DNA from: Prosthecobacter debontii
GTDB taxonomy: Bacteria > Verrucomicrobiota > Verrucomicrobiia > Verrucomicrobiales > Verrucomicrobiaceae
Direction: 5' to 3'
Assembly: GCF_900167535.1 (NCBI RefSeq)
Contig: NZ_FUYE01000010.1
Span: 124,001-188,000 of the forward strand
DNA: 64,000 nt
Shown: one piece after another, positions 4,001 to 10,040 of the stretch
Numbering within the stretch: position 1 is the stretch's first letter
Layout: each line of letters begins with the position of its first letter
The notes under the pieces: model-generated
The model's input: the letters and a program-made list of their open reading frames with translations, nothing else
Told to the model about the DNA's origin: nothing
The model's database searches: none
Translations under genes and position numbers: made by a program

Positions 4001-4044
4001 CGCCACTTTGTCTTGGGCCAGAGCAGCACCTGTTGCCTCACTGG

Positions 4045-4178
4045 GAGTGGAGGCAGCTCGCCTCCACTCGTGCGCAACTCGATCTGATCCAGCCTCGGCC
4101 ATGAAAAGTCAGGGGCGGGCCGCCCCGACTCCTTGGTGGCGCCACGCATCTTCGAATGATGCGGGCACTCCTGCCCGC
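4045..4178. repeat. Cluster of extragenic palindromes (REP-like)
   Basis: Four perfect or near-perfect hairpins follow each other: a 10-bp stem 4045-4054/4060-4069 with 5-nt loop; GGGGCG 4112-4117/CGCCCC 4121-4126; the palindrome GTGGCGCCAC 4136-4145; and GCGGGCA 4161-4167/TGCCCGC 4172-4178. There is also a weaker GCATC/GATGC pair at 4146-4162. None is followed by a T run, so they are not typical intrinsic terminators. The arrangement 45 bases behind a gene end is like REP clusters. Copy number elsewhere in the genome is unknown. Confidence 0.55.
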
Positions 4179-4344
4179 AACTCCGGGCCTTGCCAAAACG
4201 TACCGATTTCTTCGTCTCCACCCAGGTCGTTAAGTTTTGTCGATAGCCTGAAACACGTTGTTGGTTAACCCTCATCCACCGACCGGATGAATTAACTGCC
4301 ACAAAAGCAAGCGACAAGTCGTGCTAACAGCCCTGACTCTGATC

Positions 4345-4500
4345 AGAGGCTGTCTGAAAAGTCCCACGCAAAGAGCGTGACTTGCCAAAGTCACGGCTTG
4401 GGGAATGCCGCATTCTCCCGGTTCACCGCGTTCGACGGCACTTGGCAAGTGCCGCTCCTTGAAATGGGACGCACTGACAGGCTTTTTTCAGACAGCCTCT
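4345..4500. repeat. 156-bp element with 16-bp perfect terminal inverted repeats (MITE-like)
   Basis: The left end AGAGGCTGTCTGAAAA (4345-4360) is the exact reverse complement of the right end (4485-4500). Inside are two further perfect hairpins: CGTGACTT/AAGTCACG at 4376-4383/4388-4395 with loop GCCA, and GCACTT/AAGTGC at 4438-4443/4447-4452. A second pair, GTCCCA near 4361 and TGGGAC near 4465, also matches. The element is too short to code for a transposase, so it could be a non-autonomous transposable element or a structured repeat. I see no convincing target-site duplication. The left end overlaps the palindrome CTCTGATCAGAG at 4337-4348. Confidence 0.5.
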
Positions 4501-4890
4501 CAGGCGGCAAGTGGTCGGCATACTCCATATGCGGGATACCACGCCGAAGTCTAGTCAGGTCGGCATCCCCTCACATCCTGAAGTCTGCCCGATCCAACTC
4601 CCAGCCAAACCACCGCATCGTCATACGGATTGAGAGCGCCCTTCGGAGCCGCCGCCCTCGCACGCCTCCGGGAAGGAGCACTCGATGTGTAGCGCCTCTT
4701 TACGTGAGCAATTCTCTCTTACGCGGATCACTCACAATCCCTGCCCTTCACTCACGCCGCCCCATCGCACCAGATAGCCGTGGACACAGGGTCCCTGAGA
4801 ACCGCATTCAAGAACATCCGCTCAAAGCAACCCCACCTTTGTCCTAATGAAATATTTGGAAAGCCTTAAAATATTGATACTGTATTGGAC

Positions 4891-4914
4891 GATATCGATC
4901 ACTATGATATCGAT
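4891..4914. promoter_or_regulatory. Direct repeat GATATCGAT x2 in AT-rich upstream region
   Basis: Two identical copies of the self-complementary 9-mer GATATCGAT lie at 4891-4899 and 4906-4914, centre to centre 15 bases. They sit in the AT-rich stretch 62 bases before the DUF3806 start. They could be an operator or part of a promoter; no well-spaced -35/-10 pair stands out. This is a position-based guess. Confidence 0.25.
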
Positions 4915-4975
4915 ATTGTAGCACACTAATTACACTGTTCGGCCAAAGAAAACAGTCCACGCCCCCTACAACACC

Positions 4976-5407
4976 ATGGAGCAGCGAGTCGAAGCACCAA
5001 ATGATGAGGATTTAGCTCGCATTGAACGCCAGCGAGAATGGGTTCGAGGCCACTTCGAGCCTGCGAGTCAGCCACTCTATGAGGAGTATGATCAGAAGCT
5101 GCGCTTACTTGATGCAATCCTTCAGAACGGATGGATTGAGCCATCGGAGACTTGGAAGCTGCAAAGTCTTGGCATCACATTGGGTGACGCATTCGTTCAG
5201 CGGTGCGGCTTCGAGTGGGTCAGCGTCGAGGATGAGTATGGACGTGACCCGGCACTAAGGCTTCCTGGAACAACCATAATTCTCTATCCTCTGACCATGA
5301 TCTCGAAGCGCGTTGAGAGGGGCGAGTCTGTTGATGTTTATTCTCTGATCGACGGAGTCGCCCAGAAAGCTGACGAGTTGAGAGCAAGTTTGCAGCAGCC
5401 AACATGA
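4976..5407 (+). CDS. DUF3806 domain protein
   Basis: A 143-aa soluble protein with no signal peptide or membrane segment. The central and C-terminal part (LQSLGITLGDAFVQRCGFEW, then EDEYGRDPALRLPGT and MISKRVERGE) matches the DUF3806 family as I know it. That family has no assigned function. The start is the ATG at 4976; there is no strong ribosome binding site. The gene is flanked by the 7-mer GTTCGGC at 4937-4943 (33 bases before it) and at 5532-5538 (behind it), the second ending an attC-like hairpin at 5430-5538. This gives it the layout of an integron gene cassette of about 595 bp. The neighbours on both sides are unrelated genes. Confidence 0.75.
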   Translation: MEQRVEAPNDEDLARIERQREWVRGHFEPASQPLYEEYDQKLRLLDAILQNGWIEPSETWKLQSLGITLGDAFVQRCGFEWVSVEDEYGRDPALRLPGTTIILYPLTMISKRVERGESVDVYSLIDGVAQKADELRASLQQPT

Positions 5408-5429
5408 AGCTGCACCACGAACAACCAAG

Positions 5430-5538
5430 GCCGAACAAGGCGCGGCTGGACAACTGCTGGGGCTGCTCTGTCGGCCATGCTTCCGTAACTTTAACCCGCC
5501 TTCCTGTCTCGGAGCGCCACCCCGCCCCGGCGTTCGGC
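5430..5538. other. Possible integron attC-like site after the DUF3806 gene
   Basis: The left arm is GCCGAAC (5430-5436), spacer AAGGC, then GCGGCTGG (5442-5449). The right arm is CCACCCCGC (5517-5525), spacer CCCGGC, then GTTCGGC (5532-5538). The outer boxes are exact reverse complements, the spacers are unpaired, and the inner boxes pair as 4 bp plus 3 bp around a bulge. This is the R-spacer-L layout of attC sites, and 109 bp is within their size range. Against it, GTTCGGC departs from the usual GTTRRRY at one base, and no integrase gene is in the window. A further GTTAGGT, which does fit GTTRRRY, lies at 5550-5556. Confidence 0.4.
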
Positions 5539-5568
5539 ACAGCTTAGAAGTTAGGTCTCACCAGCACA

Positions 5569-6258
5569 ATGATCAATCATATCCCTGAACGTAGCGCGCT
5601 GGTGATTCTGGCTGAGCAGGAGCCTTGCGACCTGCGCGTGGCGCTCAGGCGCTATCCCGTCAAGCAACTGACGATTTACGGCACCCCGGAGAATCTGAGC
5701 GCACTGAGCGATTATCCAGACATCGAGGAAGTCTCCCTACGCAAGTGCAGGATTGCCGATCTGCGGGCCTTGCGGGGTTTGTCCCGCCTGCGCCGGTTGG
5801 AGGTAGCTTTCGGGTCATTGTCGAGCGTGGACGTGGATTTTTGCAGCGGCACCTTGGAATCGTTCGCGCTCTGCCGACTGCGGCACCTCAAGGATCTGAG
5901 TACGTTGCCGTTTCTGCCGAAGCTCGAGTATCTGGAGCTGAGCCATCTCCATGGGTTTCGGCCCCCAGATTTCCTCTCGTTCTCGAATGTCCGTCATCTG
6001 TCGATCTGGAACACGGATTGGTCCACGCTCGGCTGGATCGAGCATCTGCCGATGCTGGATGCGCTGCACATCTCGCAAAGCAAGATCGAGGATCAGGACT
6101 GGCGCCCGATTCTGCGGCTCAAGCGGCTGCGTTACCTCCACGGCATGAAGGATGTCTTCAAAAGCGCGGCGACCAAGGAATTCATGCGGCTCCGACCCGA
6201 AGTGCGAGTGGACAAGGGAATTCCCGCAGGCTTAGAAAGACATCCAGAGATGAAGTAA
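5569..6258 (+). CDS. Leucine-rich-repeat-like protein
   Basis: A 229-aa protein without a signal peptide or membrane segment. From about residue 30 to 200 it shows a run of 20-25-residue units with spaced Leu/Ile, for example VKQLTIYGTPENLSALSDY, IEEVSLRKCRIADLRALRG and LEYLELSHLHGFRPPDFLSF, which is an irregular leucine-rich repeat or similar solenoid. Such folds usually bind other proteins, and no partner is evident. The start is ATG 5569. The gene begins 31 bases after the attC-like site at 5430-5538, and its stop is followed after 34 bases by a second attC-arm-like sequence at 6293. Confidence 0.65.
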   Translation: MINHIPERSALVILAEQEPCDLRVALRRYPVKQLTIYGTPENLSALSDYPDIEEVSLRKCRIADLRALRGLSRLRRLEVAFGSLSSVDVDFCSGTLESFALCRLRHLKDLSTLPFLPKLEYLELSHLHGFRPPDFLSFSNVRHLSIWNTDWSTLGWIEHLPMLDALHISQSKIEDQDWRPILRLKRLRYLHGMKDVFKSAATKEFMRLRPEVRVDKGIPAGLERHPEMK

Positions 6259-6292
6259 TACCAGCGATTTTGGGAGCGGCCCCTTGGTGAGT

Positions 6293-6304
6293 GCCTAACA
6301 AGGC
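6293..6304. other. Possible left arm of a second attC-like site
   Basis: GCCTAAC at 6293-6299 fits the RYYYAAC box of attC sites and is followed by the same spacer AAGGC that follows GCCGAAC at 5430. The two sites share AACAAGGCG. It lies 35 bases behind the stop of the LRR gene, as expected for a cassette end. I could not find a matching GTTAGGC right arm within the next 140 bases, so the site is at best truncated. Confidence 0.25.
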
Positions 6305-6419
6305 GATAGCGCCCCCACCGCAATAACCTACCTGATGCGTTTTTCCCGTTCGTTTTAGCAACGGCCTCAGCCTCCACCGAACTGCCCAAAGCTGGGGGGA
6401 AGTTTGCCTTGGGGGGTTT

Positions 6420-6674
6420 ATGCTGGGGAGTCTGTTGGCTTGCGTCGTGCTGGTGTCGAGTTTGGTCCTACGCCGTCGCTCGGCTTGGTTCCTCCAGACG
6501 GCATGGGTTGCGATGATCTTGGCTTCGGGCGCATTGGCCTTTGCAGCTCATGCTTATCAGATCGATTACACCCGATTTCATGATGAGGAGGATGCGGGTT
6601 CCTCTCAACGATTCGTGGGCAAATCAGCAGGCCCCCATCAACGGCCCACTAAGATCCTGTGCCAGCCGTGGTAA
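6420..6674 (+). CDS. Small membrane protein, possibly a remnant
   Basis: The 84-aa frame begins with two hydrophobic segments (about residues 3-16 and 24-44) split by a short RRRS stretch, followed by a hydrophilic tail. It has no recognisable family. A GGGGGG run just before ATG 6420 could act as a ribosome binding site, but the spacing is only 3 bases. The C-terminal 30 residues look like non-selected sequence, so this may be a gene broken near residue 55. It lies between the attC-like arm at 6293 and the lipoprotein gene. Confidence 0.3.
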   Translation: MLGSLLACVVLVSSLVLRRRSAWFLQTAWVAMILASGALAFAAHAYQIDYTRFHDEEDAGSSQRFVGKSAGPHQRPTKILCQPW

Positions 6675-6787
6675 AAGGCAGAAGGCTATCCACGATTGGC
6701 ATTGCGTAGGCCAGCAAACACAGCCAATCTCTTAGTCCTAACGATCTAACTTTACCACAATTTCACCCAAGCCGAACATCCATTTTA

Positions 6788-7438
6788 ATGCGCGCCTGTT
6801 TCATTTTTTCGATCGTTTGCTTACTGAGTCTGGCTCTTTGCCAATGCACGACCAGCCGATTCAAAGGTGGTGCTTATCAGAGTGCAGACCGCAAGCTTAC
6901 CTGCCGACTACCCTCGCATAACACTGCCTGGACGATGAAAAAAGAAAGTGGACCCGGTAGCCAAGCGGTGACTTGGTGGGACGATTTCACGGGGGAACTC
7001 TACAAAGTCGAGATCCTTGATGCCTCCATGCTGCCTTCCGAGTTTTTGGCCTTACCCAAGCGTGAGCAGATGATGACCAATCTAACGATCGTTTTAAATA
7101 ACCTCCGATCCGTTTCCGCGCAGTCTCGCCTGATCAGCCAGCGATACCTGGCGGATATCCAAGGAGGTGCGTCTTACGGCTTTTATAATGCCCCAGGAAC
7201 CTCTCCCATTGTGACAACCCGAGGTACGCCTAACGGCCCCTATCATTCTTCTCGGGCCAATGTCACCCGGGCCGTCATGAGCTTTCGTTCCCAACGCCAT
7301 CTCGTGATCGTCACCCACATCAACGAACACTTGGGTGCCATCATCAATCCTGAAGCTCCCATCTCCTTCGTAAAAAATGAGGAGCAAAGCCTGCCCAAAT
7401 TACTTGCATTCGTTCGCTCCATTCAACTGTCTGACTGA
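6788..7438 (+). CDS. Predicted lipoprotein of unknown function
   Basis: A 216-aa protein with a typical lipoprotein signal: a hydrophobic N-terminus (MRACFIFSIVCLLSLAL) followed by a Cys around residues 18-20 in ALCQC. The mature part is mixed alpha/beta with no repeats and no family I recognise. It includes a stretch of polar residues (about 129-160) and ends in KLLAFVRSIQL. It is probably anchored to a membrane on the periplasmic side. The start is ATG 6788. No ribosome binding site is clear. Its neighbours on both sides are short genes of unknown function, so context gives no role. Confidence 0.65.
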   Translation: MRACFIFSIVCLLSLALCQCTTSRFKGGAYQSADRKLTCRLPSHNTAWTMKKESGPGSQAVTWWDDFTGELYKVEILDASMLPSEFLALPKREQMMTNLTIVLNNLRSVSAQSRLISQRYLADIQGGASYGFYNAPGTSPIVTTRGTPNGPYHSSRANVTRAVMSFRSQRHLVIVTHINEHLGAIINPEAPISFVKNEEQSLPKLLAFVRSIQLSD

Positions 7439-7743
7439 CGAATGTAAGAGGCCTAACTATGAAGACCGTGTGCCGCAACATCTGCATCATCCTTGGTGGA
7501 CCCCCAGAGGCCTTGAAGAATCGCCTTGATCGTGTGACGCCCTTCCCAAGCAGCCGGAATGTGCAGATTCATTTGGGAGAAAGAGGCTCCGACTTGATCC
7601 TTCTGATCCATGGGTGGACCACTTGAATCTAGCCCGACCAACTCGACCTCGGGTAATTTTCTCGAAGAGCGATATCGCTTCGCCCCCGCCTTTCCAGCTG
7701 CCAGTCCTTCCCCATCCGAGCGTTAGTCCTCGTCAGGCCTCTC
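7439..7743. other. 305-bp interval without a convincing gene
   Basis: Short frames exist on both strands (plus 7459-7626, 55 codons; minus 7453-7641, 62 codons), but neither has a ribosome binding site or a recognisable product, and they overlap each other. GCCTAAC occurs at 7451-7457, just behind the lipoprotein stop, and GTTAGTC at 7722-7728, just before the next gene. They resemble attC boxes but are too far apart (278 bp) for one site. Confidence 0.45.
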
Positions 7744-8088
7744 ATGAACGAACCATCACCATCCAAACCCAAAGTGCCCGTAGGGTCGCTCCTTCTCATT
7801 GTATGCATGTATGTTCCTTGGTTGTTCCACTTCTTTGGTCCACGCACACTTGCCAACGACGATGCGGGATTGGAATTTCCATTTAGCATCATCATCGCCT
7901 TTCTGACTCTCGGATATCTGGTTCTCATCATTGTCTTACCGATTCGTCTTTACCGGCACCGAACGGCATCCCTCGCACATAGAGTCGCCTTTTATGCTGT
8001 CATCGGCATCTTCGTCTTGTTTGGCTTTTCCTTTTTTTGGAGTTTCCTAACTTCCTCATTCGCTAGTACCCCTGCACCTAACCATTGA
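7744..8088 (+). CDS. Small three-helix membrane protein
   Basis: A 114-aa protein with three predicted membrane helices, at about residues 13-31, 46-68 and 81-103, separated by short charged loops (RLYRHRTASLAHR before the third). No family is recognised. The start is the ATG at 7744. Codon use and hydrophobicity make it a credible gene, but there is no ribosome binding site of note. It is surrounded by other short genes of unknown function. Confidence 0.55.
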   Translation: MNEPSPSKPKVPVGSLLLIVCMYVPWLFHFFGPRTLANDDAGLEFPFSIIIAFLTLGYLVLIIVLPIRLYRHRTASLAHRVAFYAVIGIFVLFGFSFFWSFLTSSFASTPAPNH

Positions 8089-8200
8089 TCTCTCTCAATG
8101 AGACCTCCATCAGAACCTCATGATGATTTTCAGTGACATCGATAAGCCCCTTTTCCAACGGCCATGCATGCCATCCAATCCTCAACAGAAAAGTTAAGCC

Positions 8201-8557
8201 ATGGATACTAGGCCATCACTTTTCCAGCTCTTCGTGGGGACGGTTATATACAAGATGCCGTATCGCGAATCTCGACGATGTCTGGATCTGATCGCCAACC
8301 ACGGCCTTCCGATCACCTATCTGGAACTTTCGGCCCATCACCTCGCTGGCGGTCGAATCGGCTCTTGGATCGAGGGCTTGATCTATGCACAAAATCACGG
8401 GATCAAAATGAGCGTCACGAATGCAGCCGCACGCGATTTGATCGAAGTCTATGGCTCCAAGCTCACCTTGCTTAACCATATTCAGGCGTTTGAGCGGCTC
8501 GGTGTTAAAGATTTGGATTCTGCACCGCTCGATCTCGATAAGATCAAGGAGGTCTAA
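8201..8557 (+). CDS. FloA-like N-terminal region, stand-alone fragment
   Basis: The 118-aa product resembles the segment of flotillin-like FloA (YqfA) proteins that lies between the membrane anchor and the SPFH core. The pattern LPITYLELSAHHLAGG, then IEGLIYAQNHGIKMS and NAAARDLIE matches the FloA pattern of LExHYLAGG, then ALIAAQRAxIxL and ERAAAIDL. The upstream part LFQLFVGTVIYKM also aligns with FloA's LVGMRLRRV region. FloA proteins are about 330 aa and have an N-terminal membrane anchor; this protein has neither the anchor nor the SPFH and coiled-coil parts. It could be a decayed gene or a small domain protein reused on its own. The frame is intact from ATG to stop. Confidence 0.6.
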   Translation: MDTRPSLFQLFVGTVIYKMPYRESRRCLDLIANHGLPITYLELSAHHLAGGRIGSWIEGLIYAQNHGIKMSVTNAAARDLIEVYGSKLTLLNHIQAFERLGVKDLDSAPLDLDKIKEV

Positions 8558-8696
8558 TTAGACGCCATCAGTTGCGATGCCGCATTTTTGCAAACTTTCA
8601 AGATCAGTGGCGTCCGTCTTCCGTGTACATCTTCCCGTGAACCCCATCCTTTCCACTTGGCAGCCCTTCCTCATCCATGCGATGGGATGAGGCATC

Positions 8697-10040
8697 ATGA
8701 GATCGAAAGGCCTAGGACATCGTCAACCACGCATCATCAGCGGTCAGGAAGTGACCCCACGCAAGAGCATGGGGCAGAACTTCCTGGTGGATGAGGAGAT
8801 CGCGCGTTGGATCGCGGATCAGATCGAGCCGGATAACGCGGGCTTCGTGGTGGAGCCGGGACCGGGTCTGGGGGCGATGACACAACATCTGGTGGGTCGT
8901 CCGCAGAAGCTGCTGCTGATCGAGAAGGACAATCAACTGGCCCCGGAGTTGGTGAAGAAATACGGCCCGCAGGGGGTGGAGGTGCAGCATGCGGATGCCA
9001 CCCAGGTGGATCTGCGTGAGTGGTATCGCCATGGCGATGTGCGGGTGATCGGGAACTTGCCGTATTCGGTGGGCGGGGAGATTTTGAAGCACATGCTGAC
9101 GCCGCCGACACCGGTGAAGAGCGCGGTCTTCATGCTGCAAAAGGAGGTGTGCCAGCGGCTGGCTGCCAAGCTGGGAGAGGATTCTTACGGGGGGCTCTCG
9201 GTGCTGGTCCAGCGGGACTGGGATGTGGAGCTGCTGCGCATCATCCCGCCGGAAGCGTTTAACCCGAAACCGAAGGTGGACAGCGCCATCGTGCGGATGA
9301 CGCCGCGCGATCCACGGACGCTGCCGGTGTATGATCGCAAGCTGTTCGAAAAACTGGTGCGGATGGGTTTCAGCCAGCGGCGCAAGCAGCTCAAGAATCT
9401 GCTGCCCCCTGCTCCCGGCAGTTGGGAGGGCTTAACGGAGTCGCTGGGCATGCCCGTGACGATGCGGGCGGAGGAACTGTCTGTGCTGCAATGGGTAAAC
9501 CTAGCCCGCTGGTATGAGGAGCGCCAAACGGCGGATGCTGGGCAAAAGGCGAGCGAGATCTTTGACGTGGTGAATGAGCGTAATGAGGTGATCGGCCAAA
9601 AGACGCGCGGCGAGGTGCATGCGCAGGGTCTGCTGCACCGAGCGGTGCACGTGTTTCTGATCAACAAGCGTGGCGATGTCTTCCTGCAAATGCGCTCGCA
9701 CCTGAAGGATGTGTCCCCTTTGAAATGGGACAGCAGCGCAGCGGGGCATCTGGATGTGGGCGAAAGTTATGCCGCCTGTGCCATCCGCGAGGTGCATGAA
9801 GAGGTGGGGATCGAGATCACCGGAACCGAACTGGCCGCGCAACTACCCGCCGGTGAGCATACTGACCATGAATTTGTGGAACTGCACATCGCCCGCCACA
9901 ACGGCCCGGTGCGCTGCCTGCCCGAGGAGGTGCCCTATGGCGAGTGGTTCAGCCCCGAACAGATCACCGCCTGGGTGACCAAGCGGCCGCAGGACTTTGC
10001 CAAAGGCTTCGTGACCTGCTGGAAGGCGTATGTGAAGTGA
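8697..10040 (+). CDS. rsmA: 16S rRNA dimethyladenosine transferase RsmA fused to a Nudix hydrolase
   Basis: Residues about 20-277 are RsmA/KsgA, which dimethylates two adjacent adenines near the 3' end of 16S rRNA. The N-terminal SMGQNFL, the SAM-binding EPGPGLG (53-59) and the catalytic NLPYS (120-124) are all intact. Residues about 287-447 are a Nudix domain of the YfcD/isopentenyl-diphosphate isomerase-like group: FDVVNERNEVIGQKTRGEVH, then a complete Nudix box from G350 to I372 with REVHEEVGI. Both domains therefore look active. Normal RsmA is about 270 aa, so this is a true fusion, with a short linker (EERQTADAGQKAS). ATG 8697 is taken as start, with GATGAGG just upstream. The Nudix substrate is unknown. 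Confidence 0.93.
   Translation: MRSKGLGHRQPRIISGQEVTPRKSMGQNFLVDEEIARWIADQIEPDNAGFVVEPGPGLGAMTQHLVGRPQKLLLIEKDNQLAPELVKKYGPQGVEVQHADATQVDLREWYRHGDVRVIGNLPYSVGGEILKHMLTPPTPVKSAVFMLQKEVCQRLAAKLGEDSYGGLSVLVQRDWDVELLRIIPPEAFNPKPKVDSAIVRMTPRDPRTLPVYDRKLFEKLVRMGFSQRRKQLKNLLPPAPGSWEGLTESLGMPVTMRAEELSVLQWVNLARWYEERQTADAGQKASEIFDVVNERNEVIGQKTRGEVHAQGLLHRAVHVFLINKRGDVFLQMRSHLKDVSPLKWDSSAAGHLDVGESYAACAIREVHEEVGIEITGTELAAQLPAGEHTDHEFVELHIARHNGPVRCLPEEVPYGEWFSPEQITAWVTKRPQDFAKGFVTCWKAYVK

Follow-up and report, generated by a model that had tools for sequence, protein, structure and literature searches.

A putative attI-headed gene cassette array without an adjoining integrase gene in Prosthecobacter debontii

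The window, a stretch of 64,000 nucleotides from the genome of Prosthecobacter debontii, carries a short row of putative integron elements. They are arranged in the order of an attI site, a DUF3806 gene cassette with its attC site, and a leucine-rich-repeat (LRR) cassette with a truncated attC site (Table 1). The window contains one complete attC site and one attC 5' half in total. No integron integrase gene (intI) was found near the array in the window.

Table 1. Positions in the window of the putative array elements and of the repeats beside them.
Feature	Position	Strand	Basis
Putative attI site, "type B"	4843..4943	+	Profile R3 match, 63.8 bits; the window copy is one of nine R3 training sequences
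Putative gene cassette 1 (DUF3806)	4938..5550	+	Begins with TTCGGC and ends with the G of R'
DUF3806 protein gene, 143 aa, intact	4976..5407	+	PF12713, E 9.5e-26
Putative attC of cassette 1, 127-bp family	5430..5556	+	Homology to intI-linked attC, covariation, covariance model R2
Putative gene cassette 2 (LRR protein), 3' end missing	5551..6313	+	Bounded by R' of attC 1 and by the attC 5' half
LRR protein gene, 229 aa	5569..6258	+	PF12799 LRR_4, E 7.2e-8, passes the Pfam cut-off
Putative truncated attC of cassette 2, R''-spacer-L'' half GCCTAACAAGGCGATAGCGCC	6293..6313	+	Top attC 5' half in 64 kb
Dispersed repeat, left of the array, the side expected for intI	4032..4313	+	Four genome copies
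MITE-like element AGAGGCTGTCTGAAAA..TTTTCAGACAGCCTCT, between repeat and attI	4343..4503		89% identical copy, L120 472-632

Both repeats on the left side recur in the genome. The ~280-bp repeat has only four genome copies, all adjoining integron loci: contig C8 at 244650, C10 at 84987, C30 at 21573, and the window. The copy on C30 abuts an intI pseudogene; it was initially considered an insertion into intI, a view that was revised since the repeat occurs only at integron loci. The MITE-like element has a terminal inverted repeat of ~16 bp, as read from the sequence. A partial copy lies beside the C8 array, and the L120 copy is located near the cassette arrays of C13.

On the right side, the array is followed by several small genes and a ksgA/rsmA-like gene (8697-10040). 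Further cassettes were sought between the array and this gene (6314-8690), and no convincing attC match was obtained with a covariance model of attC (R2) trained without this genome. The small genes (starting at 6420, 6788, 7744 and 8201; span 6420-8557) lack homologues around ksgA in relatives, and 8201-8557 shows a sub-threshold match to FloA. The ksgA/rsmA-like gene encodes 447 aa, is conserved in full length across relatives, and appears to be fused to a Nudix-like domain, as read from the sequence.

A sequence-only reading had proposed cassettes with attC-like sites here, based on the 7-mer GTTCGGC and related motifs. The motifs are indeed present where it placed them: GTTCGGC at 4937-4943 and 5532-5538, GCCGAACAAGGCG at 5430-5442, and GCCTAACAAGGCG at 6293-6305. 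GTTCGGC occurs 8 times in the window against 9.5 expected. This is an ordinary frequency, and thus the 7-mer by itself proves nothing. The 13-mer GCCKAACAAGGCG is rare: the 6.29-Mb genome contains it four times, twice in the window, and does not contain its reversed control pattern.

The sequence 5430-5556 is predicted to be an attC site. It shows 86% identity over 124 bp to an attC site (L047 3916-4042) in an array beside an intact intI in G231, a genome of the same family. Seven such sites can be aligned over ~127 bp. The AAC and GTT cores of R'' and R' are invariant in the seven homologues, and R' starts with GTT at column 123, corresponding to position 5550 of the window. The site in the window is composed of R'' (5430-5436, GCCGAAC), a spacer AAGGC, L'' from 5442, L' (5536-5543, GGCACAGC), a spacer TTAGAA, and R' (5550-5556, GTTAGGT). 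The GTTCGGC at 5532 is aligned with GGTCGGC inside the G231 site, indicating that it is internal to attC and is not the R' box. The attC-like hairpin proposed at 5430-5538 therefore stands as an attC site, while its end and its R' box are to be moved to 5556 and to GTTAGGT at 5550.

The R and L helices covary in the seven-member family. In eight pairs both sides are changed, and pairing is seen in 89.7% of the cells; when the partner was slid by 1-3 columns as a control, 0-1 both-side changes and 31-47% of pairing cells remained. The pairing of L'' and L', with an extrahelical base and short spacers, is clear in the family. Several L pairs are broken in the window copy, where L'' pairs poorly, and they are kept in a close relative of this attC at C8 8210. 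We read the lost pairs as probable decay. Folding did not bear out the proposed hairpin: 5430-5538 folds like its shuffles on either strand, the bottom strand included (z -0.01 and 0.59), and unconstrained folding of 5430-5557 was likewise no better than shuffles.

The covariance search of 5430-5538, set beforehand as a test, gave a weak match. Model R2 picks 5430-5538 at 15.2 bits (E 0.19 over 122 kb, 0.006 over 4 kb), preferring the 5538 end, and most other attC sites in the genome score 14-67 bits. An earlier model of joined halves (R1) failed on the longest attC sites and gave false ends on known sites, and R2 was used instead. The two grounds on which the sequence-only reading was to be abandoned, a missing covariance match and conserved synteny, were not observed: the match exists, weak as it is, and none of the array genes is present beside ksgA in relatives, whose ksgA flanks are too diverged for an empty-site comparison.

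The half-site profiles for the attC 5' and 3' halves were trained without this genome, and the chance level was taken from thirty 64-kb simulations. Over the whole window, 5536-5556 is the top-scoring 3' half. Among the 5' halves, 6293-6313 ranks first and 5430-5450 second. The former scores 25.9 bits against at most 18.3 in the thirty simulations; the latter scores 14.2 and is, alone, not above chance. No L'-R' half matching 6293-6313 is seen among the top 3' half-site matches. The attC-like site suspected behind the second gene is thus present, but as a 5' half only. A search against Rfam gave no match. Genome-wide, R2 finds 27 attC sites at E 10 or better, and the site in the window ranks last. 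Local searches add further sites, and about eleven clusters are recognized on C3, C5, C8, C10, C13 and C30. The arrays on C8, C3 and C10 include two or more attC sites each.

The DUF3806 gene is a real gene cassette, as judged from its borders and its recurrence. A 91% identical copy of the protein is encoded between attC sites in G291 (Prosthecobacter sp. HKST-UBA37), whose ksgA is 71% identical to that of the P. debontii genome. The nucleotide identity between the cassette and its G291 counterpart (L090 2086-2594) is 85%; it begins exactly at 4937, which corresponds in G291 to R' of the preceding attC, and ends just behind R'' (5430). One gene and one attC are present between G/TT borders, and they recur in G291 as a unit with a different attC. 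The attC behind DUF3806 is of the 127-bp type in the window versus an about 90-bp type in G291, and it appears that the attC was exchanged at R''. The dN/dS between the two DUF3806 genes is 0.09, indicating that the gene has been kept under selection. A DUF3806 homologue from Pedosphaera also has an attC behind the gene. DUF3806 was not found in viral contigs. The sequence CACGAACAACCAAG precedes R'' in three cassettes (window 5416-5441, L090 2568-2592 and L047 2006-2030).

The LRR gene is considered a second putative cassette, whose attC is reduced to the 5' half. No homologue of this gene was found in 387 Verrucomicrobiota genomes at E 1e-15, and its left border is therefore placed from the attC family alone.

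The sequence in front of the DUF3806 cassette is predicted to be an attI site, by its identity with an element in front of intact intI genes. Its core is GATATTG..ACACTAATTACACT directly followed by GTTCGGC, with the crossover between G4937 and T4938. The GTTCGGC at 4937 forms the end of this putative attI and is no stray attC-type box. The sequence immediately preceding 4937 is also found at the head of other arrays. Nine attI copies, the window copy among them, were aligned to build the profile R3, so the window score is not independent, and attI is argued here from the copies next to intI. Four divergent intact intI genes, in G340, G319 (two loci) and G314, have this element 494-570 bp in front of them; in G319 C24 and G314 it is followed by attC. 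The core ACTAATTACACT with the following GTTCGGC is identical in the window and G319. Homology among 14 attI loci ends within about 20 bases past the G of G/TT. About 90 bp ahead of the junction, several copies carry a promoter-like box of the type TTGA(C/T); the window attI is diverged or shortened in this upstream part.

In the search of 68 family genomes with R3, ten strong copies (six on C10, three on C13, and one on C4) and two partial ones were found in the P. debontii genome, and copies were also found in eight other genomes. Nine of the ten strong copies are followed, within about 2.5 kb, by an attC of the same orientation, in some cases a weak one; no attC match was found behind the remaining copy, C13_41k. 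None of the ten (0/10) has an adjoining intI. A second type of attI, GTTTCTCATCAACTA followed by GTTCG, heads the arrays of C30, C8 and C3. Tandem attI-cassette units, in which several attI copies point the same way over 8-13 kb, are seen at L118 5991-16732 (C10, 44-55 kb) and L120 6296-19646 (C13).

The genome was also searched for intI, as the sequence-only reading had advised, and yielded one convincing match to the TIGR02249 profile. It is on C30, covers profile positions 3-175 of 315, and contains an in-frame TAG. The only intI of the genome is thus a putative truncated pseudogene on another contig. In tyrosine recombinases, the remaining catalytic residues lie in the C-terminal half. The C30 gene is truncated before this half and lacks the part with those residues. 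It is ~40% identical to the integrases accompanying type-B attI and represents a different type. The integrase that acted on type-B attI in this genome is either gone or unsampled. No integrase of the type matching type-B attI was found in the genome (99.6% complete, 56 contigs). Given the 56 contigs, a missed integrase is possible though unlikely. The C30 locus (G000; L013 11308-17972) looks like a decayed integron, with the truncated intI, the second-type attI and several attC sites. An IS110-like transposase gene, its type judged from the sequence, is inserted in its array.

A cluster of attC sites lacking an integron integrase is called CALIN (Cury et al., reviewed in PMC8618304), and off-target insertion, intI loss and rearrangement are named as its origins (PMC8618304). 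The array in the window appears to be a real array of the CALIN kind, attI-headed and decaying. The proposal of cassettes with attC but no neighbouring integrase is upheld by the attC family, which lies beside intact intI in relatives, and by the recurrence of the DUF3806 cassette. The locus resembles CALINs in its attC-bearing cassettes, in having no intI nearby, and in the dead intI that the genome has at another place. Unlike them, it keeps a recognizable attI at its head, as do at least nine other loci in the genome, and has one complete attC left against the usual CALIN threshold of two sites. The anatomy of attI, attC and cassettes is that of sedentary chromosomal integrons, and the attI type is that of the G314, G319 and G340 integrons with intact intI. 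In contrast to those, the window attI has no intI next to it, and the platform of this genome is dispersed over many loci. The CALINs of Xanthomonas away from ilvD are similar in that the integrase is often lost or truncated and several fixed loci are occupied, but the accessible part of that source reports no attI, while each type-B array here has one (PMC12444791). In delta-attI-type cassettes of class 1 and 2 integrons, attI sequence is also found away from intI; there, however, the gene is followed by a short piece of attI in place of attC, whereas in the window attI stands at the head of the array and the gene is followed by an attC (PMC12901181). The literature searched gave nothing usable on attI-bearing CALINs.

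Very likely, this locus is the remnant of an integron array that has an attI of its own at the head and lacks an integrase, and an integrase from elsewhere inserted the cassettes at G/TT. At least ten attI sites in the genome, the window attI among them, have no intI. An integron integrase encoded elsewhere would have recombined circular cassettes at the G/TT of the window attI, as suggested by the exact G/TT junction and the identity of attI. A promoter inside the attI element may drive expression of the cassettes. The array is probably frozen now, since the only intI lacks its C-terminal half and L'' and L' of the remaining attC pair poorly.

Other origins differ greatly in likelihood. The ordinary 7-mer frequency and the shuffle-like fold would fit a chance combination of GTTCGGC repeats and orphan genes without any integron, but this can hardly be reconciled with the 127-bp homology to an intI-linked attC, the cassette homologue with exact borders, and the attI. 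It is very improbable that an integrase acting outside its own integron made an off-target insertion at a secondary, attG-like genomic site. This is one proposed CALIN origin (PMC8618304) and agrees with the lack of attC before the first cassette, but the sequence at the left junction is not random: a conserved element of ~100 bp stands there, and it is found at ten loci and in the attI region of four intact integrons. An insertion at a secondary site, at 4937, was an early working idea and was dropped once the element turned up at other arrays. The element could also be a dispersed mobile repeat, a preferred target of cassettes rather than attI. Its dispersal in several genomes and its near-identical copies in G231, which look recently spread, are in line with this. 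We consider it improbable, however, because the position before four intact, divergent intI genes is that of attI, the identity of the element ends at G/TT, and the promoter-like box is situated as expected for Pc.

It is somewhat doubtful, although possible, that all attI-headed arrays started as full integrons and lost their intI genes one by one, with attI never used in trans. C30 shows intI decaying in place, and the repeat abutting this broken gene is also upstream of three attI loci, as if marking intI deletions. Full integrons are frequent in the family, where 24 of the 68 genomes have an intI match above the model cut-off (28 of 68 at E 1e-45). However, tblastn detected no IntI remnant near the ten type-B attI copies, and three attI copies within 8.3 kb of C10, all in one orientation, are hard to derive from three full integrons. 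The G231 genome also speaks against it. Three attI loci without intI on its contigs C49, C53 and C18 (L165, L166 and L169) have different first cassettes. On the left, 470-640 bp up to and including attI are common to them, and on the right about 440 bp, composed of attC and the next sequence; both sides show 92-94% identity. The sole intI of G231, on C16, is of another type than the attI-matching integrases. The simplest reading is that different cassettes would have been inserted after the attI unit had spread. Recombination between arrays would give a picture like that of trans insertion.

The near-identical G231 loci with different first cassettes suggest that dispersed attI sites may be served in trans by one integrase. 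Returning to the attI-headed array in the window, it is quite possible, as a tentative model, that it belonged to a distributed integron: scattered attI platforms, probably with promoters, would each gather their own first cassette, be served by one integrase in trans and be spread by a mobile unit, and here the integrase is dead and the platforms remain.

Integrons are common in the family around Prosthecobacter. At the phylum level, 79 of the 288 Verrucomicrobiota genomes sampled had an integron integrase at E 1e-70. The remark that such clusters had not been shown for this lineage holds for the genus in the literature searched, but not for the phylum, as Verrucomicrobiota are listed among integron-carrying phyla (PMC8618304). 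The attI profile R3 and the attC covariance model R2 are usable for integron searches in the family. For the origin of integrase-less cassette clusters, dispersed capture sites used in trans are a directly testable answer. If the integron is distributed in this manner, many cassettes would sit in the expressed first position. Orphan capture sites of this kind point to a way in which integrons may spread and work at a distance.
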